DNA of 20,399 bases from a virus. The stretch is from positions 1 through 20,399 of IMG/VR virus record IMGVR_UViG_3300021959_000529; one strand, written 5' to 3'. Made by a program: the position numbers and the translations under genes. This document shows positions 1-20,026 of this stretch, in pieces (the first letter of the stretch is position 1; each line of letters begins with the position of its first letter). The notes under the pieces were generated by a model. The model was not told where the DNA came from. It worked only from the letters and a program-made list of their open reading frames with translations, and did no database searches.

Positions 1-1
1 A

Positions 2-1534
2 GATATTACAGTTTTTGAGCAACTTTACCAACTTGCTGCAGAAGATATAAAAGAAACAGCTGGTAAATTAAAAGAGTACAAGAAAACTGACTTTGCTCAA
101 ATTATTTCTGATGCAGAAGATATTATTTCGCAAAATATTGATGCAATATCTAAATGCGAACAACAAGAACAAGATGCACAAACACAAAAAGACGAACTTC
201 AAGATGATTTATTGCGTCAAGTTGAAAGTAAACAGCCAACAACATATACAGGTCCGTCAATAAAACAACTTAAACAAGAAGAAATTCAATTAACTGATAA
301 GATAAAAAATCTGCAGCAAGAAATTGAAACGAAAGAACAAGAAGTTGAAGAAAAAAATGATACTCAACTTAAACTTCGTGTTGATATAAAGCAATTTGAT
401 CATGATGATATTGAACACCACGTTGGAAAATATAATTCATATGATTCAAAGATAGAAACACAAACGAGAATAACAAATAAACAAAGGACATATGTTGATG
501 GATTGCAAGAAAAAATACAACATCTCGACACACATGAATATGATCCAGAATGCAAATATTGTACATCAAACGTATTTGTTAAAAACGCATTACAAGCCAA
601 GGATTGTATTGATCAAGAACGTGAGTCATTGAAACGACATGAAGAATATTTAACACGTTTTAAAACAGAGCAACAGGAATTATTTAAATACACTATACAA
701 AAAACTCAGTTAGAATCATTGATTTCAGAACGATCTGGATTACGAGATGATATTGAACGTGATGAACTTCGTTTAGAAATTTTAGAAAATGAATTACAGA
801 CAAAAGAATCTGAATTAGAAACTTGTTTAGAGCGACAAGAACAATATACGATTAATCAATCTGCAATTGAAACTAATCAAAAAATTGAAGAACGGATTGA
901 ATTAATTAAAGATGCGTTAGAACATAATAAACATGCAATAGCAAAGATTACAACACGAATCAAAAATTTACATGGTGAGATTGAAGTTGCAAAAACAAAA
1001 AAGAAACATGCACTTGAAAGTTTAGATTCTTATAAAAAGTTAGAAACAGAATATAAGGCATATGAATACTATTTAGAAACAATAAAAAGAAATGGTGTAC
1101 CATATGATATTATTGCAAAAGCTCTTCCAAAAATTGAAGCTGAAATCAACAATGTACTCAATCAAATAGTTGATTTCAATATGGTTCTGAATACAGATGG
1201 CAAGAATATAAACGGATATATTATTTATGATGAAGATAATTTTTGGCCATTAGAATTAACATCTGGTATGGAACGTTTTATTTCTAGTTTAGCAATTCGT
1301 GTAGCTTTAATTAATGTATCAGCATTGCCTCGTCCTAATTTTATTGCAATTGATGAAGGCTGGGGAAGTTTAGACTCAGAACATATTGCTGCAGTAATCA
1401 ACCTATTTGAATATTTTAGAAACAAGTTTGACTTTTCAATTATTATTTCACACGTTGATTCTATGCGTGATATGGTTGATAAATTACTTGAAGTTAACAA
1501 GCAAAACGGATTTAGCCAGATTCAGAACACGTAA
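2..1534 (+). CDS. 46: Recombination endonuclease subunit gp46 (Rad50/SbcC-like), 5' truncated by window edge
   Basis: The frame is open from base 2, so the N-terminus with the Walker A motif lies outside the window; this is truncation by the window, not a broken gene. What is seen: long Glu/Lys/Gln-rich coiled coils on both sides of a CxxC zinc hook (DPECKYC, cysteines at 551-553 and 560-562), then an ABC-type ATPase C-lobe with signature SGMER (1262-1276), Walker B FIAIDEGW (Asp-Glu at 1352-1357), a D-loop (GSLDSEH) and a switch histidine in IISH. Proteins of this family pair with an Mre11/gp47 nuclease to process DNA ends during recombination-dependent replication. The gp47 gene would be expected upstream. 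The stop codon overlaps the promoter-like motif of the next gene. The family call is firm; the gp46 name follows from the T4-like context. Confidence 0.93.
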   Translation, partial: DITVFEQLYQLAAEDIKETAGKLKEYKKTDFAQIISDAEDIISQNIDAISKCEQQEQDAQTQKDELQDDLLRQVESKQPTTYTGPSIKQLKQEEIQLTDKIKNLQQEIETKEQEVEEKNDTQLKLRVDIKQFDHDDIEHHVGKYNSYDSKIETQTRITNKQRTYVDGLQEKIQHLDTHEYDPECKYCTSNVFVKNALQAKDCIDQERESLKRHEEYLTRFKTEQQELFKYTIQKTQLESLISERSGLRDDIERDELRLEILENELQTKESELETCLERQEQYTINQSAIETNQKIEERIELIKDALEHNKHAIAKITTRIKNLHGEIEVAKTKKKHALESLDSYKKLETEYKAYEYYLETIKRNGVPYDIIAKALPKIEAEINNVLNQIVDFNMVLNTDGKNINGYIIYDEDNFWPLELTSGMERFISSLAIRVALINVSALPRPNFIAIDEGWGSLDSEHIAAVINLFEYFRNKFDFSIIISHVDSMRDMVDKLLEVNKQNGFSQIQNT

Positions 1535-1542
1535 TATTTATA
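1533..1542 (+). promoter_or_regulatory. Putative phage late promoter motif AATATTTATA
   Basis: One of eight near-identical copies in the window. It overlaps the stop codon of the gp46 gene and ends 16 bases before the ATG at 1559. No Shine-Dalgarno sequence is visible between motif and start. If transcription begins about 6-8 bases after the motif, as for T4 late promoters, the leader would be only about 10 bases. The promoter role is inferred from recurrence and position. Confidence 0.6.
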
Positions 1543-1558
1543 ATAAAGTATTTCGTGT

Positions 1559-4500
1559 ATGAAAAGAAAAGAAACTATTTATCGAGGACTTGACTTAATT
1601 AATGTATTTTTTGAAGATACATCATTAACATCTCCTGATATATTTCAAATTACAGAATTTCCTACACGACTTACTGCTGGTAAAAATTTAATTAAATTAA
1701 AAGGCCATCCGGATAATTTACGAATTGGTTCATATCTTAATATTGAAATATTAGATTTTAATGGCGATCCAATTTATTATGAAATAATTGATTATATTGA
1801 TGAAGATAAGTCTCGTGTTATTGCAATATATGTTTATGAAGAAACATCTCCGGGCGAAGCTTCAATAACAATTGTTGGTGAATTACAACAACTTAACGGA
1901 CAACCAGTACCGCAAGAATGGGAAGGTCGTGCTAATGTTAAATGGTCTAGAACTGTACAAATTAATCCTACACTTTCAAATAATTCAGAAGTAATTTTTG
2001 AAGCATTACCGAATGTAACAATACAAGAACAAGTAGGTGTACAATTAAATCGAACATATCCAAATGGACAACAATTTCCAACTTATTCAACAGGAACTGT
2101 TAGATTCTTTTCATATAATGGACAACCAGCAATTGAATTAACAAACGGATTGTTTACTAAAGATATGGAAGATGGTACAATAACAGTATCATCGCCATCT
2201 AATCCACAACCTACGCCGCAGTTTACACCATCTAGTACAGCATATTCTTCAACTATTAAGAAAGTTTTAAGTGAAACAACAATGTTATTAGATTCAGAAT
2301 TTATAGTCAAATCTAATCAAACACTTTCAACTCATACATATACATCATTTGACGCATCTTCATATTCATTATTATATGAAGCAACACCTACATATACACC
2401 AACTGAAAATTCAGAATCATTTGCATATGTTACTATAAACGGATTAGAACCAGCAACTGGTGATATTGATCGTATAAAGGTATTTGTTAATGGAAAAGGT
2501 ACAATTGGTACGTGGGAACAAATTAATGATATTGAATTAGAAGAAATTGAATTATTTGTAGATACCGGAAGTGTATTTCCAGATTTTGCAATAGGCACAT
2601 TTTCATCTCAAAATATAATTGATACGTATTGGGAAGCAAAATATTTTAACAATGGTGGATTAGGTACTGCTCCTACAGCATCTTGGACGAGTGGTAGTAT
2701 AGGAAATGGTGTACAAATTATTCCGCATGGTGGGTCTGATATATCTGCTACAAATAGTGTAATGACATTTCAACACGTAGCACCATATGCCGCTACATTT
2801 GTAAGTCAGTCTGCATATAAATTAACAATTGACGCAATTGGCACTAGGAGTTCAGTAAGTGGTAATTCTAATCCAAAATTATCAATATTCTTATCAGGTT
2901 CTGCATTTCCATATGATGCACAAGATCTATTGAATCAAAACATACAACAATTTGGACGTAGAATCGGTGAATTAGAAGTATTATCTAGTAATCAAAGATT
3001 CGATGATACGGTATTTGAATTTGAGGCATTACAAAATGGTAGTGGGCAATTAATATTTGTAATTGAAGGCGGTGAGTGGCAATTTTCTGATATCAGAACT
3101 ACAACTGATAATGATCCCGGATATACACCAGGGTATACAAGAATAAGAACAGAAATACCAACCAAACATAAAAGTGGTAACCAACTTTCATTCAAATTAG
3201 AATATTATAATGTAGATAGTGTTAAAAGTAAACAAATATCATATGTTAATAATCTAGATTGGCAGGGAGGTAATCGTTATATTGATGGTGATTATTCAAT
3301 GCTTACTGGTTCATTATATGTTGCTGATTCATTAGAATCGGGCATTGCAATATCTGGACTTAAAAATACTGGTTTCGTACGCAGCTTAGGATATTCTGGA
3401 TTTGAATATGGCGATCCTGGATTTTTATTATGGAGCGGTAGTGCGTTATCTGGCAGCTCCGGAACTAAAGGTGGCGTACCATATTCTGGCGTCGGATTAG
3501 AATTATATGCTAGTGGCAATAATTATTTTAGATTTTCAACTGCAGATTCTGAATTAGATGTAAGAACTGAAAAATTCTTCGTCGGAAATTCATCTACAAA
3601 TATTTCAGCAAGTAATGGAAATTTGCAAATATTATCATCTAATTTTACAGTAACAGCTGATGGAGATGTTTCAGCAACAAATATTTCATTGTCTGGTACA
3701 TCATATGCTGGATTATTTTCTTGGGATATTAAATTATTTAGAGATGAGGGAGAATATCCAGCATTATCTGCTATTGACAATGATGTATTATGGTATACGT
3801 CTTCATACGGAGGTGTACCGTACGTAATTATTGATTTAGGCGCAGCTCCAGCATCATTTATTCGTTTTAATGATGCCCCGCCATACCCCATATGGGCGAT
3901 ATTAATTAATGATACATCAATAACACCTAGCCGACAAGATGGTACGTTATTAACGTTAGAAGCTGCTACTAACAATGTTTATATTAGAGCCGGCAACGGC
4001 ATGAGCGTATTACCAGCAACAGCATCATACATAACACCATTTGGAACAGAATATAATAACCTCAATCAAAATTATGAATTTTATTACGTACAAGGACAAC
4101 GTAAATTTGAATATAATACTACTGTAACAATTGACAGTCAATCATATAGTAATGTGTATGATATGGATACCGGGGCTCGTATATTTTTACAAAAAAGTAT
4201 TTTTGATTACAATATTTTAGCAACCGGACACCCAGGTTATGAATCATTTAAAGGAGTATTCCCAGCAGCAGATGATTTATATGATATTGGTAGTAGTTCT
4301 AGGCGCTGGGATGATATTTACGCTACGAATGCAACAATTCAAACATCAGATGAAACGCAAAAAACTGATATAGCATCATCTGATTTGGGATTAGATTTTA
4401 TAAATGAGTTACAGCCAGTTAGTTATAAATGGATTGGAAAAACAAGAACTCATTATGGATTAATAGCTCAAAGTGTAAGTTCATCATTAGCTAATTTTAA

Positions 4501-4675
4501 TAAAACAACCGCAGATTTTGCAGGAATTGTAATTTCTACAAATGAATCTGGATCAATATTTGGACTTCGTTATAATGAATTTATATCTCCGTTAATTAAA
4601 GCAATACAAGAACAACAACAGATAATTAATTCGTTGCAATCTAGAATTGAAATATTAGAAAGTGGTTCTGTATAA
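1559..4675 (+). CDS. Large tail-fibre-like protein with C-terminal S74 intramolecular chaperone
   Basis: A 1038-residue protein, Ser/Thr/Asn/Gly-rich and beta-type in composition, as in phage adhesins. The C-terminus carries a Peptidase S74 (endosialidase chaperone) domain from about residue 925: SDETQKTDI with the presumed Ser930/Lys935 pair, LGLDFINELQPVSYKW, then HYGLIAQSV, and a short terminal coiled coil (EQQQIINSLQSRIEILE). Just before it is DLYDIGSSSRRWDDIYATN, a common fibre-to-chaperone junction. In known S74 proteins this domain drives trimer folding and then cleaves itself off at the conserved serine. The N-terminal 600 residues show no family I can name; they include a probable attachment region and a beta-rich, possibly carbohydrate-binding middle part. 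It is a single gene behind its own late-type motif. Role: host receptor recognition, by inference. Confidence 0.88.
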   Translation: MKRKETIYRGLDLINVFFEDTSLTSPDIFQITEFPTRLTAGKNLIKLKGHPDNLRIGSYLNIEILDFNGDPIYYEIIDYIDEDKSRVIAIYVYEETSPGEASITIVGELQQLNGQPVPQEWEGRANVKWSRTVQINPTLSNNSEVIFEALPNVTIQEQVGVQLNRTYPNGQQFPTYSTGTVRFFSYNGQPAIELTNGLFTKDMEDGTITVSSPSNPQPTPQFTPSSTAYSSTIKKVLSETTMLLDSEFIVKSNQTLSTHTYTSFDASSYSLLYEATPTYTPTENSESFAYVTINGLEPATGDIDRIKVFVNGKGTIGTWEQINDIELEEIELFVDTGSVFPDFAIGTFSSQNIIDTYWEAKYFNNGGLGTAPTASWTSGSIGNGVQIIPHGGSDISATNSVMTFQHVAPYAATFVSQSAYKLTIDAIGTRSSVSGNSNPKLSIFLSGSAFPYDAQDLLNQNIQQFGRRIGELEVLSSNQRFDDTVFEFEALQNGSGQLIFVIEGGEWQFSDIRTTTDNDPGYTPGYTRIRTEIPTKHKSGNQLSFKLEYYNVDSVKSKQISYVNNLDWQGGNRYIDGDYSMLTGSLYVADSLESGIAISGLKNTGFVRSLGYSGFEYGDPGFLLWSGSALSGSSGTKGGVPYSGVGLELYASGNNYFRFSTADSELDVRTEKFFVGNSSTNISASNGNLQILSSNFTVTADGDVSATNISLSGTSYAGLFSWDIKLFRDEGEYPALSAIDNDVLWYTSSYGGVPYVIIDLGAAPASFIRFNDAPPYPIWAILINDTSITPSRQDGTLLTLEAATNNVYIRAGNGMSVLPATASYITPFGTEYNNLNQNYEFYYVQGQRKFEYNTTVTIDSQSYSNVYDMDTGARIFLQKSIFDYNILATGHPGYESFKGVFPAADDLYDIGSSSRRWDDIYATNATIQTSDETQKTDIASSDLGLDFINELQPVSYKWIGKTRTHYGLIAQSVSSSLANFNKTTADFAGIVISTNESGSIFGLRYNEFISPLIKAIQEQQQIINSLQSRIEILESGSV

Positions 4676-4678
4676 ACT

Positions 4679-4688
4679 AATATTTATA
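4679..4688 (+). promoter_or_regulatory. Putative phage late promoter motif AATATTTATA
   Basis: Lies three bases after the fibre gene's stop codon and ends 16 bases before the ATG at 4705, the same spacing as the copy at 1533. It continues as TAAAATGG. No Shine-Dalgarno site is visible before the start. Confidence 0.6.
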
Positions 4689-4704: not shown

Positions 4705-7305
4705 ATGAAATCAATACTACAAGAATTCAAACAACATCTCATAGAACAAACAAGTAATGTTACTGTTTTGTTTCCAGGCGGATTTAAGCCTATAACTGGA
4801 GCACATTTAGCACTTGCTAATCGATATGCAGAAAATCCTTCAGTTAAACAAGTAATAATGCTTGTTGGTCCAAAAGATAGAGATGGATTTACGAGAAAAC
4901 AAACTATCGATAGTTTTAATCTATTAAATTCAAACCCAAAAATCATAATGCAACCAACAGAATTTAATTCTCCAATAATGGCTGCATATGAATTCTTATT
5001 TGCATTGCCAGAAGATGCTCAAGGACAATATGCAATGGCAGCTTCAACAAAGGGTGATGATTATGTACGAGCTAAAACATTTGTTCCTAATGTAGATAAA
5101 TACAAAATTACTGGTGATAAATCTGGAAGAAAAATACCGCAAGGTATTGATGCTATTGAATTAACAGCAAATGCAGATCCAATTCAATATCCATCAGGAG
5201 AACCAATTTCTGCAACAGCAACACGACAAGCAATTGCATCGGGCGATTATAACATATTCAAACTCTCGTACCCGGGTATAGAAGATTCGGTACTAAAAAA
5301 TGTTTGGGAAATATTAACTGGCAAAATGATTGAATCTACTTTTTCTAAAGGTTGGTGGAATACAATTTTAGAACAAGATGTTAATGCATTATTTACTGAA
5401 TTAAGAACTGGAAAGCGTTTACGTGTATTTGATTTTGATGATACATTAGCAAAAATGAATGCTACAATTTATGTTAAACACCGAGATGGATCTAACACAG
5501 AATTAAACCCAGCACAGTTTGCGGTTTATGAGCCAAGGCCCGGCGATGATTTTGATTTTTCAGAATTTGATAGAATTATTAAATCTGCAAATCCAATACA
5601 AAAAAATGTAGATGCATTAAAAAGATCAATGCAAGATGCTGGGGCTAAAACAACTATTTTAACGGCTCGTAGAGTGGCATACCCAGTTAAAAGATATCTT
5701 GAGCGCGAACATGGAATTAAGAACATATACGTTGTTGCACTGGGTTCGTCTGACCCAATGGATAAAGCTCGTTGGATTGAAAAACAAATTCAAAAAGGAT
5801 ATGACGATATTGAGTTTATTGACGATTCTCCAAAAAATGTAAAGGCAGTCGATTCATTACAACAACAATATCCAGATGTTGCATTAACAGCACATTTAGT
5901 AGAAGGCTATATGGATCCTAAAACTGCTGAGAAACACAAAAAGAAAATTGAAAAGCTTCGCAAATTTTTAGATAAAAATACTGGTAAAGAATTTGTATAT
6001 GATTTTGATACATACGACAAAACTACATTTGGCGTCCCATTAACCGAAGGAGTATTGCTCATGGAAGGGGGTGCTGGGGGGCACATGGCTCATCCATATG
6101 ATGATCATGGATTAACCTTCAATGAAATGAAAGAGTTAGTTGCCCGTGCTTTAGAAGGACAGTTAGATATCGAAGAAGCAGTAACTGAAAAGACAGACGG
6201 CCAAAATCTTCAAGTAACGTGGAAGAATGGTCGAGTAGGATTTGCTCGTAATAAAACCACAATCGTTAATCCGTTAACTACAGAAGAACTTACAACTAAA
6301 TTTGAAGGCCGCGGCCCTATATCAGATGCATTTCGTGAAGCAGGACAAGATTTACAAGCAGCATTTAACAAAATAGATTCTAAAAAGTTAGATAGTATTT
6401 TCAAAAACGGCGCTGTATTTGCTAATATGGAAGTTATTTACCCAGAAACGAAAAATATTATAAATTATGATAAAGCTCATATACAGTTTCACAATTTAGT
6501 TGAATATAGAATTGGAACAAACTCAAAAGGAAAGCCGACAGTAGACAAAGTTCAAACTGATTTAGCTGGCGGGTCATTAATTCAAAAAATAATTGAAGAT
6601 GCAAATGCGCACATGCAAAATACATTTTCGTTTATTCCGCCGCAAAAAATTAAATTAGGTCGTATTGCAGATTTTGAAGATCAACAAGCAGCATTATTTT
6701 CAGAAATAGATCAACTTAAAACGCAATTCGGACTTAAAGATACTGATTTAATTTCTGAATATCATCGTGCATGGTGGAGAGATGTAATCACTAGCAAAGC
6801 TCAAGAATTAGGATATGATATATCAGATGATTTAAGAGACACATTAGTAGATAGATGGGCATTCGATGATAAATCAACATCAGTTACAGTTGTTAAAAAA
6901 CAAATTGAAAATCCTGAATTTTTACAATGGGTAACTGAATTTGACGATAAAGATTTTAAATCATATCAAAAACAAAACATGGAACCATTTGAATCAATCT
7001 TTTTGAGATTAGGAGCTCTTGTATTATCAAATGTATCTCAAGTATTAGCTGCAGATCCTAGTAAATCTACACAAGAAATTAAAAGAGATATTGCTACAGT
7101 AATAAAGCAAGTACAACAAAGTAAAGACCCGGAAATTCTTAAAAAAGTTGAATATCAATTAAAAAGAATTGAAAAGCTGGGTGGATTAGATCGAATAGTT
7201 CCAATTGAAGGAATTGTATTTACATTCAAAGGAAACACATACAAGCTCACCGGAGCGTTCGCTCCCGTGAATCAATTGATAGGTATATTAAAGTTTGGAC
7301 GATAA
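4705..7305 (+). CDS. Three-domain fusion: nucleotidyltransferase, HAD phosphatase and ligase-like adenylyltransferase
   Basis: An 866-residue protein. Domain 1 (about 18-205) is a cytidylyltransferase/NMNAT-like Rossmann fold: PGGFKPITGAH (TxxH-type nucleotide motif ending at His34) and ISATATR (168-174). Domain 2 (about 238-395) is HAD-like: FDFDDT with Asp243 and Asp245, Thr320 in ILTARR, Lys354, and FIDDS with Asp373/Asp374, resembling polynucleotide 3'-phosphatase domains. Domain 3 (about 455-866) has covalent nucleotidyltransferase motifs: EKTDG with Lys496 as candidate adenylated lysine, a motif III-like NMEV (Glu576), EGIVF (Glu835) as motif IV and YKLTG (Lys847) as motif V. Motifs III and IV are about 260 residues apart, far more than usual, implying a large mainly helical insertion. 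The N-terminus MKSILQEFKQHLIE resembles a T4 capsid-targeting sequence. Nucleic-acid repair and/or NAD metabolism is inferred. Domains 1 and 2 are secure; domain 3 is likely. Confidence 0.8.
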   Translation: MKSILQEFKQHLIEQTSNVTVLFPGGFKPITGAHLALANRYAENPSVKQVIMLVGPKDRDGFTRKQTIDSFNLLNSNPKIIMQPTEFNSPIMAAYEFLFALPEDAQGQYAMAASTKGDDYVRAKTFVPNVDKYKITGDKSGRKIPQGIDAIELTANADPIQYPSGEPISATATRQAIASGDYNIFKLSYPGIEDSVLKNVWEILTGKMIESTFSKGWWNTILEQDVNALFTELRTGKRLRVFDFDDTLAKMNATIYVKHRDGSNTELNPAQFAVYEPRPGDDFDFSEFDRIIKSANPIQKNVDALKRSMQDAGAKTTILTARRVAYPVKRYLEREHGIKNIYVVALGSSDPMDKARWIEKQIQKGYDDIEFIDDSPKNVKAVDSLQQQYPDVALTAHLVEGYMDPKTAEKHKKKIEKLRKFLDKNTGKEFVYDFDTYDKTTFGVPLTEGVLLMEGGAGGHMAHPYDDHGLTFNEMKELVARALEGQLDIEEAVTEKTDGQNLQVTWKNGRVGFARNKTTIVNPLTTEELTTKFEGRGPISDAFREAGQDLQAAFNKIDSKKLDSIFKNGAVFANMEVIYPETKNIINYDKAHIQFHNLVEYRIGTNSKGKPTVDKVQTDLAGGSLIQKIIEDANAHMQNTFSFIPPQKIKLGRIADFEDQQAALFSEIDQLKTQFGLKDTDLISEYHRAWWRDVITSKAQELGYDISDDLRDTLVDRWAFDDKSTSVTVVKKQIENPEFLQWVTEFDDKDFKSYQKQNMEPFESIFLRLGALVLSNVSQVLAADPSKSTQEIKRDIATVIKQVQQSKDPEILKKVEYQLKRIEKLGGLDRIVPIEGIVFTFKGNTYKLTGAFAPVNQLIGILKFGR

Positions 7306-7313
7306 TATTTATA
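7304..7313 (+). promoter_or_regulatory. Putative phage late promoter motif AATATTTATA
   Basis: Overlaps the stop codon of the preceding gene and ends 19 bases before the ATG at 7333. It continues as TTAAAAATAGGA, which includes a weak AGGA ribosome-binding element. It probably drives the run from 7333 through terminase, where no further copy is seen. Confidence 0.6.
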
Positions 7314-7332: not shown

Positions 7333-8130
7333 ATGGCAGAGAAACATAAGTCAAAATATAAAGCACCAAAAGATTTAGAAAAATCAACGAAACCAACTCC
7401 TCGTAAAGATCTTAAAGATTATGAAGGAGATGAAACAGAAAACATGGTGCCAAATTCTACTGGCGAAAAGCAAAAGAATGTACTTCGTAAAACTGATAAA
7501 GAAGTGATTGACAACGGATCAATTGTTCCAGACATGAAAGATGCTGATAGAGCTTATAAACCAGAAGGAGAACATGACCCAAAACATGCTGCTAAAGTAA
7601 TGTCTAAGCGTCAAGATGATGATGAAAAAGACAGTGAAGATTCTATTAAAGATAAAATTGAAAATCTAACAAGAGAACAAAAAGAACGTTTAGTTAGAGA
7701 ATATATTCGTCGCCGTATTAAAAATGTTCTTAAAGAGCAAGAAGAGACAGAAGAAGAACCAGTTCCAGCAGAAGAGCCAATAGCTGAACCAGCAGCTGAA
7801 CCAACACCAGCAGCTGAACCTGCAGTAGAACCTGCACCTGCTTCAGCAGAGCCAGCCACTCCAGAAGCACCAATCGAGCCTGCTCCAGAAGCACCAGCTG
7901 AAGAACCTGCCGCCGATCCTACACCTGAGGAAAGTAATGCTATTGAAAGTAGATATATTCAATATTTACAAACAACATCTTATACACCAAAACAGTTAGT
8001 TAGTAATTTAATGAAAATAGGATTAAAGCTTTCTTCTGAATATGATGTTAAAACAATGAAAAATTTCTTTTTGCAATTAAAATTAACGGCAGATAGAATT
8101 TACAAAGATCCAGAACAATTTAAAAAATAA
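7333..8130 (+). CDS. Hypothetical protein with Pro/Ala/Glu-rich linker
   Basis: A 265-residue protein I do not recognise. Residues 1-110 are highly charged and Lys/Asp/Glu-rich with no hydrophobic core, so probably disordered. Residues about 112-138 (LTREQKERLVREYIRRRIKN) look like one amphipathic helix. Residues about 140-203 form a low-complexity linker of Pro, Ala and Glu (repeats such as PAEEP, AAEPTP, PAPEAP). The last 60 residues form a compact helical domain (RYIQYLQTTSYTPKQLV, then NLMKIGLKLSSEYD). The layout, flexible linker plus small terminal domain, suits a structural or scaffolding role, but nothing in the sequence names one. It is the first gene behind the 7304 motif, and the next gene begins four bases after its stop. 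Confidence 0.85.
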   Translation: MAEKHKSKYKAPKDLEKSTKPTPRKDLKDYEGDETENMVPNSTGEKQKNVLRKTDKEVIDNGSIVPDMKDADRAYKPEGEHDPKHAAKVMSKRQDDDEKDSEDSIKDKIENLTREQKERLVREYIRRRIKNVLKEQEETEEEPVPAEEPIAEPAAEPTPAAEPAVEPAPASAEPATPEAPIEPAPEAPAEEPAADPTPEESNAIESRYIQYLQTTSYTPKQLVSNLMKIGLKLSSEYDVKTMKNFFLQLKLTADRIYKDPEQFKK

Positions 8131-9711: not shown

Positions 9712-11295
9712 ATGGCAGCACAAAAAGACATAAAACAAATAATCGCGGAACAGTACCAAAAATGTGCTTTAGATCCCGTCTTTTTTATGCGTAATTATTG
9801 TTATATTCAACATCCCGTTAAAGGAAAAATAAAATTTAATCTTTATCCATTCCAGGAACAATCCTTAACGGATTTACGTGATAGTAGATATAACATTATA
9901 TTGAAGTCCCGACAGTTAGGTATATCAACACTATCTGCAGGATATGCTCTATGGGCAATGTTGTTCAATGAAGATTTCAACGTACTTGTTATTGCAACAA
10001 CACAAGAAGTAGCAAAGAACCTTGTTACGAAAGTGCAAGTAATGCACGACAATTTGCCTTCATGGTTAAAAGGTAATATGACAGCAAATAATAAGTTGTC
10101 ATTAAAATTTAAAAATGGCTCACAAATAAAGGCAATTTCTTCAGCATCAACCGGTGCTCGATCAGAAGCATTATCATTATTAATTGTAGATGAAGCTGCT
10201 TTCATTAGAAACATTGAAGAAATTTGGGTAGCATCGCAAGCAACTCTATCTACTGGTGGCGGCGCAATAGTACTTTCAACACCCAATGGTATTGGTAATT
10301 GGTTTCATCAAACATGGGCGGGTGCTGAATCTGGGCATAATGGATTCAACACAATTAGACTTAGATGGGATGTACACCCAGAACGAGATCAAGCATGGCG
10401 AGATGAACAAACACAACTTTTAGGAGAAAAAGGCGCAGCACAAGAATGTGATTGTGACTTTATTTCATCTGGTCATACTGTAATTGATGGTTCAATACTA
10501 CAAAATTTTGAATTGAAATGTACAGAGCCAATAGAACGAAGAGGTTATGATAACGGATATTGGTTATGGAAATACCCAGATTATTCTCGAGATTATATTG
10601 TTGTAGCTGACGTTGCTAGAGGAGATGGAGCTGACTTTTCTACATTTCATGTTATAGATGTACAAACTATAGAACAGGTTGCAGAATATAAAGGAAAACT
10701 TCCTCCAAAAGATTTTGGCAATATGCTAATAAGTGTTGCTTCAGAATGGAATAATGCACTGCTTGCAATAGAAAATGCTAATATTGGTTGGGCTGCAATA
10801 CAACCAGTAATTGATAGAGGTTATCAAAATTTATTTTATACATATAAAGATGATGGATATGTAGATATTGATGTACAACTTAAAAAAGGTTATGACACGA
10901 AAGACAAATCACAAATGGTGCCTGGTGTTTCAACAACATCAAGAACAAGACCATTAATGATATCATCACTTGAAATGTATATGAGGGAAGGCTCTCCTAT
11001 CATTCATTCAAAACGACTTATACAAGAGTTATTTGTATTTATTTGGGAAAATGGTAAAGCACAAGCACAACGAGGATATAATGATGACCTTGTTATGAGT
11101 TTTGCTATTGGACTTTGGTTACGAGATACGTCTTTAAGATTAAGACAACAAGGAATTGAACTCAATAAACGAGCATTAACACAATTCCAAAAAACAGATT
11201 CGGTTATATATACAGGAACAAATCGACCACAAAATACTGGCTGGGACTGGGATAATGGTTACGGCAATGAAGATTTGACCTGGCTTATTAAGTAA
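9712..11295 (+). CDS. 17: Large terminase subunit (gp17), DNA-packaging ATPase and nuclease
   Basis: A 527-residue two-domain packaging motor. N-terminal ATPase: P-loop KSRQLGIST at residues 65-73, in which the usual Walker Lys is Ile and the basic residue stands at the front (Lys65/Arg67), as in other deviant terminase P-loops; Walker B LLIVDEAAF with Asp160/Glu161; then a VLSTPNGIG coupling segment. C-terminal RNase H-fold nuclease: Asp300 in VVADVARGDGAD, Glu354 in LAIENANIG and Asp458/Asp459 in YNDDLVMS, matching the order of the T4 gp17 Asp-Glu-Asp triad. In this family gp17 docks on the portal, translocates DNA into the prohead and cuts the concatemer. The gene starts three bases after the preceding stop without a clear ribosome-binding site. 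A small terminase (gp16) is not identifiable nearby. Confidence 0.97.
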   Translation: MAAQKDIKQIIAEQYQKCALDPVFFMRNYCYIQHPVKGKIKFNLYPFQEQSLTDLRDSRYNIILKSRQLGISTLSAGYALWAMLFNEDFNVLVIATTQEVAKNLVTKVQVMHDNLPSWLKGNMTANNKLSLKFKNGSQIKAISSASTGARSEALSLLIVDEAAFIRNIEEIWVASQATLSTGGGAIVLSTPNGIGNWFHQTWAGAESGHNGFNTIRLRWDVHPERDQAWRDEQTQLLGEKGAAQECDCDFISSGHTVIDGSILQNFELKCTEPIERRGYDNGYWLWKYPDYSRDYIVVADVARGDGADFSTFHVIDVQTIEQVAEYKGKLPPKDFGNMLISVASEWNNALLAIENANIGWAAIQPVIDRGYQNLFYTYKDDGYVDIDVQLKKGYDTKDKSQMVPGVSTTSRTRPLMISSLEMYMREGSPIIHSKRLIQELFVFIWENGKAQAQRGYNDDLVMSFAIGLWLRDTSLRLRQQGIELNKRALTQFQKTDSVIYTGTNRPQNTGWDWDNGYGNEDLTWLIK

Positions 11296-11298
11296 CGG

Positions 11299-11308
11299 AA
11301 TATTTATT
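11299..11308 (+). promoter_or_regulatory. Putative phage late promoter motif AATATTTATT
   Basis: Begins three bases after the terminase stop codon and ends 20 bases before the portal ATG. The final base is T instead of A, as also at 17204. It is also the left arm of a perfect inverted repeat ending at the portal start codon. Confidence 0.55.
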
Positions 11309-11328
11309 TAATATAAAGAATAAATATT
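11299..11328 (+). repeat. Perfect 10-base inverted repeat abutting the portal start codon
   Basis: AATATTTATT at 11299-11308 and AATAAATATT at 11319-11328 are exact reverse complements separated by ten bases. The right arm ends immediately before the ATG at 11329. RNA read through from terminase could fold into an all-AU hairpin touching the start codon; a transcript starting inside the element would lack the left arm. It also places a copy of the late-type motif on the minus strand. Confidence 0.7.
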
Positions 11329-13176
11329 ATGGCGTCATTAAGAAAAAGATTACAAAACTTATTTTCTACTAACGTAATAGTTAGAACCTATGGTAAAGAT
11401 AAACTACGAGTAGTAGATACAAATCGCCTTCAATCTACAGGTAATTTAACGCAAAGTAAAGTTGCTGATAGATATACAAGATTACATGGGTCTAATAAAC
11501 AGCGCGTTGGAGGAATGGGCGGGTATGACTCAAATTATTATATGCATCAAAATCGTATGCAGTTATACACTGACTATGAAATGATGGATAAAGACCCAAT
11601 TATATCATCTGCATTAGATATATATGCTGACGAATCTACATTAGCTGATCAGTTTGGCGACGTTCTTACTGTTAAATCATCAGATAGTAGAATTCAAAAA
11701 ATTCTTTACAATTTGTTTTATGATGTAATGAATATTGAATTTAATCTTTGGCCATGGATTCGTAATATGGCAAAATATGGTGATTTCTTTTTAAAATTAG
11801 ATATTGCAGATGAAATAGGTATTATTAATGTTCGCCCATTTTCTTCATATGAAATAGAGCGATGGGAAGAATTCAATGAAAATACTGGTGAATATGATAT
11901 TAAATTTAGACATATTGTATCAGAACAACTTACATATGATGTATTTGAAATAGCACATTTTCGTAATATTTCAGATTCTAACTTTTTACCGTACGGTAGA
12001 AGTATGTTAGAAGGAGCTCGTCACGAATTTCAAAAATTAATGTTATTAGAAGATGCAATGCTTATTCATAGAATTATGCGTGCACCTCAAAAACGTATTT
12101 TTAAAATAGATATTGGTAATATTCCACCTAATGAAGTTGATACTTATATGGAACAAGTTATCAACAAAATGAAAAAAATTCCACATATTGATCCTAGAAC
12201 TGGAAATTATAACTTAAAGTTTAATTTAAATAATATGTTAGAAGATTATTATCTTCCAGTTCGCGGCGGCAATTCATCTACTCAAATTGATACATTAGAT
12301 GGAATGGAATTTACAGGTATTGATGATATTGAATATGTAAAACATAAAATGATGGCTGCATTAAAAGTACCAAAGCCATTCTTAGGATTTGATGAAGGTG
12401 TAGAAGGAAAATCTACATTAGCATCTATGGATATTCGTTTTGCAAGAACAATTGAAAGATTACAAAAAATTGTTGTTTCTGAATTAACTAAAATTGCAAT
12501 CATACATTTATATTCTCAAGGATATGAAGATAAGGATTTAATTAATTTTGAATTAGAACTTACAGCACCTTCTATTATTTATGATCAACAAAAAGTTGCA
12601 TTAATGAATGAGAAAATGCAATTAGCCCAGGCAATGAAAGATTCTAAATTAGTTTCTCATAAGTATATTTATGAATTCATATTCAATATGTCAGAAGAAG
12701 AATGGTTACAACAAAGAAATGATATTGTTGAAGATTTAAAATTAACATTCCGTCAAAATCAAATAGAACAAGAAGGAAATGACCCTACAGTAACTGGTCA
12801 ATCATATGGTACTCCGCATGATTTAGCAACAGCTCATATGAGTGCTAATGATGTTTTAGAACCAGATAAAGGGGGCAGACCGCCAGAAGGTATTAAGTCA
12901 GGCCAGCATAAAAATGCGTTAGGATGGGATCCGCTAGGCATCAAACAAATCAAACAAGATGTTAAGTCAGCTGGCCAAGCAACAACATTTACGCCTGATC
13001 CTAGATTCTATAGAAGACAATCTAGAAATTCATCATTTGCAACAGAACATGCAGATATATTGAAAAAAATTAAACCTAAAGGTCCAAAAATTATAACAGA
13101 AACATTTAACACAGAACATACTGATACAGATTCGGGGTCAATGTTGGATGAAAACAATATTTTAAATGATGAATAA
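11329..13176 (+). CDS. 20: Portal vertex protein gp20
   Basis: A 615-residue protein with the features of T4-type portals: an N-terminal segment with a Tyr/Met-rich region (YYMHQNRMQLYTDYEMMDKD), the wing/stem core with SALDIYADEST, the strongly conserved DYYLPVRGGNSSTQIDTLDG block, and VPKPFLGFDEGVEGKSTLA followed by the helix FARTIERLQKIV. The C-terminal 120 residues are polar and probably flexible. In this family twelve copies form the ring at one capsid vertex that nucleates prohead assembly with gp22 and later binds terminase. It is the only gene between the 11299 and 13175 motifs, suggesting its own late transcript. No Shine-Dalgarno sequence precedes the ATG. Family assignment is firm. 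Confidence 0.96.
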   Translation: MASLRKRLQNLFSTNVIVRTYGKDKLRVVDTNRLQSTGNLTQSKVADRYTRLHGSNKQRVGGMGGYDSNYYMHQNRMQLYTDYEMMDKDPIISSALDIYADESTLADQFGDVLTVKSSDSRIQKILYNLFYDVMNIEFNLWPWIRNMAKYGDFFLKLDIADEIGIINVRPFSSYEIERWEEFNENTGEYDIKFRHIVSEQLTYDVFEIAHFRNISDSNFLPYGRSMLEGARHEFQKLMLLEDAMLIHRIMRAPQKRIFKIDIGNIPPNEVDTYMEQVINKMKKIPHIDPRTGNYNLKFNLNNMLEDYYLPVRGGNSSTQIDTLDGMEFTGIDDIEYVKHKMMAALKVPKPFLGFDEGVEGKSTLASMDIRFARTIERLQKIVVSELTKIAIIHLYSQGYEDKDLINFELELTAPSIIYDQQKVALMNEKMQLAQAMKDSKLVSHKYIYEFIFNMSEEEWLQQRNDIVEDLKLTFRQNQIEQEGNDPTVTGQSYGTPHDLATAHMSANDVLEPDKGGRPPEGIKSGQHKNALGWDPLGIKQIKQDVKSAGQATTFTPDPRFYRRQSRNSSFATEHADILKKIKPKGPKIITETFNTEHTDTDSGSMLDENNILNDE

Positions 13177-13184
13177 TATTTATA
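13175..13184 (+). promoter_or_regulatory. Putative phage late promoter motif AATATTTATA
   Basis: Overlaps the portal stop codon (TAA at 13174-13176) and ends 22 bases before the ATG at 13207. It continues as GTAAAGATAC. It is the apparent start of the prohead-protease unit running to the terminator at 16610. A TAGGAA element between motif and start may serve as ribosome-binding site. Confidence 0.6.
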
Positions 13185-13206: not shown

Positions 13207-14061
13207 ATGAAGAAACTAAAACATTCGAAGTATAAAAATACCGGTATCCTTTTTGAAATGTTAGTTCGTAAACTAACCTCTGAAACATTAACTTCTGATA
13301 AATCAAATACTATTGATATTATTAAGAAGTATTTTGGTAAGAATACGGAATTAGCAAAAGAAATGAAATTATATAATGCATTGCTTAAAGAACAATTCAA
13401 ATCTGAAGCAAGTGCATTAGAATATATACGTAGCGTAAAGGCAGCTCATTCTAAATTAAATAAATCAGTACTAAAAAGAGAACGTTATAACTTAGTAAAA
13501 GAAATATCTGAAAAATTTAAATTAGATCAAATTTCAAAAATTAGAGTTCACAATTATAAGCTGTTAGCTTCTGCATACATTATTTTTGAAAATGATGAAG
13601 CAGACAATCCAAAACAAATAATGGAATGCAAAAGCGAGATTGTAAATAATATTATAACAGAACGTGCTCAACAAGAAAAGCAACGTGATGTAGTATTAGA
13701 AACATTCAAATCTCAGTCAAAAGATCAACGATTATTAACATATAGATTACTTGTTGATAAATTTAATGACAAATATTCCGGATTAGATGAAAATCAAAAA
13801 CGTTTATTAAACAAATATATAACAAACGTTAATGATTCGGATATATTAAAAGAATATATTCAAACCGTTATTCCTACAATTAAAAAAGGTTTGAAAGCGC
13901 AAGTTGCAAAAATTGATGATGCAGCTACTAAAATTAAAGTAGAACGATTATCAGAAATGCTTTGCGATGTAGAAAATATTAATATTATTAAAGAATCACA
14001 CGTATTAAATCTTTTACGTTATTTTGATTTGATAAAAGAACTAAACGAGGTACATAAATGA
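13207..14061 (+). CDS. Hypothetical helical protein between portal and core genes
   Basis: A 284-residue, Lys/Glu-rich and almost entirely helical protein (for example ILFEMLVRKLTSETL near the start, LLRYFDLIKELNEV at the end), with no signal peptide or membrane segment. I do not recognise a named family. Its place, immediately after portal and before core-type and protease genes, corresponds to the T4 67/68 prohead core region, so a prohead core or assembly role is plausible from position only. Many T4-like phages of aquatic bacteria have an unnamed gene here. TAGGAA at 13197-13202 supports the chosen start. It overlaps the next gene by ATGA (14058-14061), indicating translational coupling. 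Confidence 0.86.
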   Translation: MKKLKHSKYKNTGILFEMLVRKLTSETLTSDKSNTIDIIKKYFGKNTELAKEMKLYNALLKEQFKSEASALEYIRSVKAAHSKLNKSVLKRERYNLVKEISEKFKLDQISKIRVHNYKLLASAYIIFENDEADNPKQIMECKSEIVNNIITERAQQEKQRDVVLETFKSQSKDQRLLTYRLLVDKFNDKYSGLDENQKRLLNKYITNVNDSDILKEYIQTVIPTIKKGLKAQVAKIDDAATKIKVERLSEMLCDVENINIIKESHVLNLLRYFDLIKELNEVHK

Positions 14062-16323: not shown

Positions 16324-16560
16324 ATGAACAAAAAACAAAAAGAACATCAATCAGTTATTCCAGGCCATTCACTTGGCGCAAATGTAGTTAATGGAGATTT
16401 AGGTTTTGCAATTCGAGCATGGAAGAAAAAACTTAAAGATTCGAAGATTCTTGATAAGATTAAATCTAAAAAAGAATTTGTTAAGCCAAGCGTAACAAAA
16501 CGGATTCAACGAAACGATGCTGCATATCGACAAAGAATGCAGAGCTTGAAAGACTTTTAG
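16324..16560 (+). CDS. rpsU: Ribosomal protein bS21-like protein
   Basis: A 78-residue basic protein. Residues about 25-66 follow the bS21 pattern closely: DLGFAIRAWKKKLKDSKIL then DKIKSKKEFVKPSVTKRIQR, to compare with the bacterial form in which a helix of type ALKRFKKKCEKAGIL is followed by a KREFYEKPSVKRKRK-like segment. The EF-x-KPSV-x-KR core is retained. Cellular bS21 binds the small ribosomal subunit near the 3' end of 16S rRNA, at the site where mRNA Shine-Dalgarno pairing occurs. Virus-encoded bS21 copies have been reported in aquatic phages, including a T4-like pelagiphage. The gene ends the prohead unit, has a weak ACAGG ribosome-binding site and ends in TAG, the only TAG stop among the genes here. 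It could redirect host translation, by inference. It resembles a complete, undamaged protein. Confidence 0.75.
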   Translation: MNKKQKEHQSVIPGHSLGANVVNGDLGFAIRAWKKKLKDSKILDKIKSKKEFVKPSVTKRIQRNDAAYRQRMQSLKDF

Positions 16561-20016: not shown

Positions 20017-20026
20017 AATATTTATA
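20017..20026 (+). promoter_or_regulatory. Putative phage late promoter motif AATATTTATA
   Basis: Begins 12 bases after the gene 23 terminator and ends 21 bases before the ATG at 20048. It continues as TTAAAATAAAGGA, which includes an AAAGGA ribosome-binding element. Confidence 0.6.

Follow-up and report, generated by a model that had tools for sequence, protein, structure and literature searches.

A 10-bp inverted repeat stands directly in front of the portal gene of an uncultured T4-related phage, and its position raises the question of whether it controls portal translation or only resembles an element that would. The DNA analysed (the window) is one strand of 20,399 nt, positions 1-20,399 of IMG/VR record IMGVR_UViG_3300021959_000529, and its features are listed in Table 1. 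The original prediction placed an exact inverted repeat at this site with its right arm against the portal ATG, and its coordinates proved correct to the base. The arms are exact reverse complements at 10 of 10 positions, separated by a gap of 10 nt, and all ten pairs are A-U. The reading favoured here, which is held with good confidence, is that the portal gene has a late-type promoter accompanied by a chance complement of its motif, and that a genuine promoter-in-hairpin is located at the tail-fibre gene, where it would delay synthesis of the fibre until late transcription.

Table 1. Positions of genes, late-type motifs and repeat arms in the window
Feature	Position	Strand	Remarks
SbcC/gp46-like gene, 3' part	1..1534	+	phrog_77, E 2.8e-24; frame open to window edge, including upstream of 212
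Left arm of tail-fibre hairpin	1527..1539 (1532 unpaired)	+	ACACG-U-AAUAUUU; contains late promoter motif
Stop codon TAA of SbcC/gp46-like gene	1532-1534	+	inside left arm of tail-fibre hairpin
Late-type motif TATTTATA before tail fibre	1535..1542 (core ATATTTAT 1534-1541)	+	18.5 bits
Loop of tail-fibre hairpin	1540-1545	+	from fold
Right arm of tail-fibre hairpin	1546..1558 (1553 unpaired)	+	AAGUAUU-U-CGUGU; adjoins ATG at 1559; co-varies with left arm
Tail-fibre-type gene with C-terminal S74 chaperone domain	1559..4675	+	phrog_7121, E 1.3e-24; PF13884, E 1e-10
Late-type motif before gene at 4705	4680..4687	+	19.4 bits; no conserved hairpin (35 leaders, p 0.87)
Late-type motif before gene at 7333	7305..7312	+	20.7 bits; no conserved hairpin (31 leaders, p 0.94)
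Large terminase gene (gp17-like)	9712..11295	+	phrog_2, E 2.2e-46; stop codon 11293-11295, three bases 5' of portal left arm
Left arm of portal repeat, AATATTTATT	11299..11308	+	carries late-type motif ATATTTAT at 11300-11307
Right arm of portal repeat, AATAAATATT	11319..11328	+	ends one base before portal ATG at 11329
Portal gene (gp20-like)	11329..13176	+	phrog_213, E 2.5e-64
Late-type motif before gene at 13207	13176..13183	+	13.8 bits; no conserved hairpin (45 leaders, p 0.997)
Late-type motif before open frame starting 20048	20018..20025	+	18.7 bits

The 30-nt portal element had a predicted free energy of -5.3 kcal/mol (RNA fold), with 0 of 200 shuffles as good, while its 81-nt context gave an unremarkable fold (z -1.18; 25 of 200 shuffles as good). 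Elsewhere in the window lies another exact inverted pair of 10 bp within 60 nt. Shuffling of the portal leader placed the right arm directly against the ATG in 0.09 % of trials, and at any position in 0.9 %. For 162 distinct motif-bearing leaders, counted without L001 and L002 as their leader is identical to that of the window, shuffling gave an expectation of 0.33 for helices of at least 10 pairs (1 seen) and of 5.8 for helices of at least 8 pairs (8 seen). The portal repeat is mildly unusual alone and unremarkable among many A+T-rich leaders, and is compatible with chance.

The left arm had been identified as a late-type promoter motif, and this is supported by one-sided strand use and by a location mostly 13-25 nt 5' of starts. 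The form of the motif in this lineage is TATTTAT[A/T], with ATATTTAT as its core. Across 20 loci (340 kb), intergenic copies of ATATTTATA numbered 82 on the plus (gene) strand and 0 on the minus strand, with 114 and 3, respectively, for ATATTTAT, and the distance from the end of the motif to the start codon was mostly 13-25 nt. The wider pattern, derived from 215 distinct sites selected by presence of the ATATTTAT core, consists of T-N-ATATTTAT[A/T], then A+T, then an AA at 96-97 % of sites, conserved four to five bases downstream of the motif. Inspection by eye found TATTTAT at most 60 nt from 9 of the 19 immuto starts printed and 9 of the 20 Mel-JY01 starts printed; immuto is a Flavobacterium phage and one of the nearest cultured relatives. 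All 79 relatives (from the best 80 of 327) have the motif 5' of the portal start, and the portal site of the window, at 10.0 bits, is the weakest of the window's exact-core sites 13-25 nt before a gene start.

This motif resembles the T4 late box, which is given as TATAAATA in an excerpt of PMC2984593 and has its first base at -13 according to an excerpt of PMC2988020. Both the T4 late promoter (TATAAATA, or NATAAATA in S-PM2) and the lineage motif are 8-bp A+T boxes ahead of structural genes, with A+T-rich sequence downstream of the box. However, TATTTATA differs from TATAAATA at two of eight positions, such that the T4 consensus is not matched here, and has the further conserved AA downstream, unlike the T4 late promoter. 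In the literature searched, mostly outside subscription journals, there was no match for TATATTTATA together with promoter and phage, for TATAAATA together with Flavobacterium, or for Mel-JY01; among the matches listed for TATTTATA, no title concerned such a promoter in the present lineage. A lineage-wide variant of the late motif provides a testable case of altered promoter specificity.

A candidate for the protein that recognizes this motif was found outside the window. A protein of ~240 aa is encoded by six of seven long relatives, Mel-JY01 and immuto, and is absent from the 20-kb window (L170:1483-2181; immuto MW353175, 78174-78872, annotated as hypothetical). The immuto copy had a weak match to phrog_234, the family of the T4 late sigma (E 0.008 when the search covered one genome, E 0.5 for the full library), and none of 30 members scanned matched this family at E 0.1. 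Alignment to T4 gp55 with hhalign was collinear but not significant (E 0.02-0.06). A model built from 30 sequences had a pLDDT of 82 and resembles sigma region 2; an earlier model from five sequences (pLDDT 45) was set aside. The newer model superposed on 4lup_C with a Z of 9.2 (2.7 A over 93 residues), a score that helical bundles can reach by chance, and among the matches listed in the structure comparison most were sigma factors. Foldseek returned no PDB match for the model at E <=0.001 and one nameless viral match. The ~240-aa protein is treated here as a likely but putative sigma factor and as a candidate late sigma of the lineage.

Pairing between promoter motif and start region was then examined across gene starts. 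Starts with a motif 8-32 nt upstream were collected (357 starts from L001-L080, L123-L154 and the window) and grouped by protein similarity, giving seven groups with six or more distinct leaders. The pairing of each leader was compared with that obtained when its right part was shuffled or exchanged with that of a relative. As relatives are not independent, the leader sets were also thinned, and as MAFFT left the right arms unaligned, covariation was judged by swapping and by folding of each leader. No conserved hairpin was detected in this test at the genes starting at 4705, 7333 and 13207 or in two other groups. A screen for motif hairpins by gene start, with loci including Mel-JY01 and immuto, detected the tail fibre, the portal of L071/L072 (-6.6), the immuto start L091:48985 (-6.9 kcal/mol) and an unrelated contig (L113). 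One of the genes without a conserved hairpin (4705-7305) encodes a protein of 866 aa, part of which is polynucleotide-kinase-like (phrog_415), and has a late-type motif ahead of it.

The tail-fibre element is a conserved structure with compensatory change. In the window, it consists of 12 pairs with a free energy of -9.5 kcal/mol (1 of 200 shuffles as good), or -12.1 when 66 nt are folded. The mean for 32 distinct leaders was -7.94 kcal/mol, as compared to -3.15 for shuffled leaders and -5.74 for leaders with the right halves of relatives swapped in; 0 of 2000 permutations were as good in the swap test and 97 % of the 32 leaders were at or below -4 kcal/mol. Thinned sets of 24, 16 and 9 leaders each gave p values of at most 0.0002, and the nine leaders that are less than 60 % identical had a mean of -8.99 versus -5.86 kcal/mol when swapped (p 0.0002). 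Compared with the median foreign right arm, a leader's own arm paired better in 19 of 24, 11 of 16 and 7 of 9 leaders of these sets. Energies ranged from -2.8 (L140, four contigs) to -13.0 kcal/mol (L052) among the 31 distinct leaders listed. In a hand-made version of the set, 12 of 42 members (L145, L146 and L155-L164) were dropped, with the start missing or only the C-terminal domain matching.

Pairing, with compensatory changes, was present in up to 31 of the 32 distinct leaders. Position -1 was occupied by GC in 20 leaders, AT in seven and GT in three, and positions -3, -4, -5 and -6 each contained four or more standard pair types. The arms of relatives differ in their letters and yet pair, as in CTGATATT/AATATCAG, TTGATATT/AATATCAA, TTAATATT/AATATTAA and ATGTATGATAT/ATATTATACAT. 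The position of the motif and of the upstream stop codon was computed along with the hairpin and its compensatory evolution. The motif lies within the left arm in all 32 leaders, a set drawn by motif and not by pairing. A stop codon of the upstream gene is found two bases 5' of the motif core in 29 of 32 leaders (TGA in 21, TAA in eight), and in these stop codon, promoter motif and left arm share bases. For the remaining three, the stop was at -3, at -16 or not found.

The upstream frame was SbcC/gp46-like in 51 of the 51 tail-fibre group members that have one (group of 52). The full-length SbcC homologue is 1055 aa in the relative L123, whose gene order is a ~190-nt gap, a DNA-primase-like gene, the SbcC-like gene and the tail fibre. 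In the five relatives listed, the stretch from the primase-like start to the SbcC stop contained no late motif. The gap itself (L123:1303-1499) contains blocks conserved across five relatives, without a late motif, and may be the site of an early promoter.

This arrangement has known parallels. For T4 genes e, soc and 49, excerpts of PMC3014915 describe a long early RNA that forms a helix over the start region and a late promoter located in the DNA of the 5' strand of this helix, such that late RNA is without that strand. I-TevI, I-TevII, I-TevIII, segB and Aeh1 mobE are described in excerpts of PMC2988022 as late genes inside early or middle transcription units, whose start region is occluded on RNA initiated further upstream. 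The same excerpts give, as the setting of such hairpins in T4, a late gene that follows early and middle genes of one strand, and the gene order at the tail fibre fits it. The tail-fibre leader has the hairpin layout of e, soc, 49 and I-TevI, here as a prediction from sequence, and is well supported on this basis as a further case of the T4-type late-promoter hairpin. It differs from gene e in that a tail-fibre-type gene stands behind an SbcC-like gene, the promoter and the arm share sequence with the upstream stop codon, TATTTATA takes the place of TATAAATA as the motif, and there is no evident Shine-Dalgarno sequence. It also differs from the set containing I-TevI in that a structural gene, and not a homing endonuclease gene, would be controlled. 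The literature searched, mostly outside subscription journals, contained no report of a tail-fibre late-promoter hairpin; the only paper matched, PMC3014915, does not contain the term 'tail fiber'. The case is new in the gene concerned, in its lineage, in the variant of the motif and in having a stop codon overlap the element. The timing device of T4 lysozyme and of homing endonucleases would thus also be present at a tail-fibre-type gene of uncultured T4-related phages.

For the tail fibre, we infer where late RNA starts, that the SbcC operon is transcribed early and that translation is blocked. Read-through RNA from the early-type SbcC/gp46-like gene would form the hairpin and bury the tail-fibre start, and sequestration of this start region in a helix of upstream-initiated RNA is what the folding predicts. 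With T4 spacing (-13 to -6), late RNA would start near 1548, within the right arm. Such RNA, initiated from the left-arm late promoter, would be without that arm and could not form the hairpin, leaving the start free. The predicted late RNA (1548-1590) folds on itself at -3.3 kcal/mol at 37 C and -7.1 at 25 C, as compared to -9.5 and -12.9 for the full hairpin. The tail fibre would therefore be held back, through the hairpin on SbcC read-through RNA, until late transcription. At the portal, too, RNA begun at the left-arm promoter would be without the left arm, in agreement with the original prediction.

The stop codon of SbcC adds a complication, since a ribosome terminating inside the left arm would open the hairpin and could weaken the block. 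A more elaborate proposal, tentative and on the whole doubtful, treats the tail-fibre element as a three-in-one switch that is kept throughout a widespread, uncultured lineage of T4-related phages, with SbcC stop, late promoter and hairpin arm on the same bases. On early RNA the fibre would then be translated only to the extent that ribosomes terminating SbcC open the hairpin, and on late RNA freely; in the same lineage, the late sigma would have changed its promoter specificity from TATAAATA to TATTTATA. An unlikely alternative takes the hairpins as devices of translational coupling, in which melting of the left arm by the ribosome that completes the upstream gene gives access to the next start on read-through RNA. 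The SbcC stop, which in 29 of 32 tail-fibre leaders falls within the left arm at -2 from the motif start, is as expected from coupling, as is the terminase stop three bases 5' of the portal left arm in the window. However, coupling requires no late promoter in the left arm, and yet the motif is there throughout the tail-fibre group; moreover, the stop-codon distance at the portal varies from -7 to -31 among relatives.

Comparison of the tail fibre with the portal provides a way to tell a switch from look-alike A+T-rich repeats. Portal relatives were drawn from the best 80 of 327, with L042 dropped as its contig begins inside the portal, leaving 79. The original prediction was of a stem hiding the portal start on terminase read-through RNA, and a conserved stem of this kind is not supported. 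The right arm is shared by the 11 nearest relatives (L001-L011), with portals at least 89 % identical, in the form AATARATAYT at the ATG, but it is missing in the remaining 68 of 79, which have other, mostly shorter leaders (e.g. TATATTTATATTAAAAAAGAAATATG). All ten pairs are kept in two of the 11 carriers, whose leader is the same as that of the window, and in the other nine the outer pairs are gone without a compensating change. At least eight pairs are kept in ten of the 11, the eleventh (L008) having a G-U pair there, and the stem is predicted at only -1.6 to -2.2 kcal/mol in L009-L011. Other short portal stems occur in L035, L079 and L071/L072, as chance allows.

No excess of pairing was detected in the portal group: 47 distinct leaders had a mean of -2.01 kcal/mol, as compared to -2.33 when shuffled and -2.05 when swapped (p 0.63). 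Thinned sets gave p values of 0.38 (n=31), 0.19 (n=17) and 0.11 (n=11), the last being a weak trend towards pairing. A pattern scan for the repeat returned 30 stretches, of which 15 were portal starts of the clade, four of these on contigs outside the first set; since the scan requires the repeat, it cannot reveal misses. The remaining stretches were other sequences, among them L098 and L115, in which a similar motif-complement repeat directly adjoins the start of a different gene (MKKTLTDVEK...).

Most likely, the portal stem does not serve as a conserved element of regulation, and evidence for a portal-specific occlusion switch that uncouples portal from terminase is confined to one close clade. 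That it works as a lineage-specific switch, hiding the portal start in terminase read-through RNA, is decidedly unlikely. This possibility draws on the exact 10-bp repeat flush with the ATG, on the eight or more pairs (or eight with one G-U) in the 11 nearest relatives, on a stability of -5.3 to -6.6 kcal/mol that increases when cool (-11.1 at 15 C) and on the presence of a like device at the tail fibre. Against it are the narrow distribution of the right arm, the uncompensated loss of outer pairs, the weak stems of L009-L011 and the absence of a pairing excess, and ribosomes terminating three bases from the left arm would cover that arm. Terminase is a late gene in T4. The gene upstream of the portal is probably late here too, so that hardly any read-through RNA would arise early enough to need blocking. 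The portal repeat probably arose as a by-product of A+T-rich sequence or is a weak copy of recent origin; under the favoured reading the promoter would be that of the T4-related lineage, with an A+T-rich leader that happens to hold the motif complement in a small clade.

It is very improbable that the dyads are DNA operators, or terminators or processing sites, instead of translation switches. Dyad symmetry around a promoter is also the expected look of a dimeric repressor site, but in the tail-fibre leaders G-U is tolerated (GT in 3 of 30 pairs at position -1, TG in 13 of 29 at position 5), the arm sequences are free to change while pairing holds, and there is no U-run after the stem.

The proposal that the right arm is a minus-strand late promoter firing antisense RNA over terminase (gene 17) is hardly credible: the right-arm 10-mer matches the reverse complement of the left arm at every base, but the minus-strand match scores 7.2 bits against 9.9 for the best minus-strand background site, the motif is nearly absent from the intergenic minus strand (ATATTTATA, 0 versus 82 on plus; ATATTTAT, 3 versus 114; 20 loci), and the minus-strand core is broken in L003-L011, the next lineage already having AGTATTTATT. 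The ATAAATA of the right arm was also considered as a sense T4 late box and rejected, with ATAAATAT intergenic on the plus strand three times versus 114 for ATATTTAT (20 loci). Elsewhere in the window, a small gene at 16324-16560 weakly resembles ribosomal protein S21 (phrog_21469, E 0.007), and the matching region of Mel-JY01 contains an annotated RpsU.
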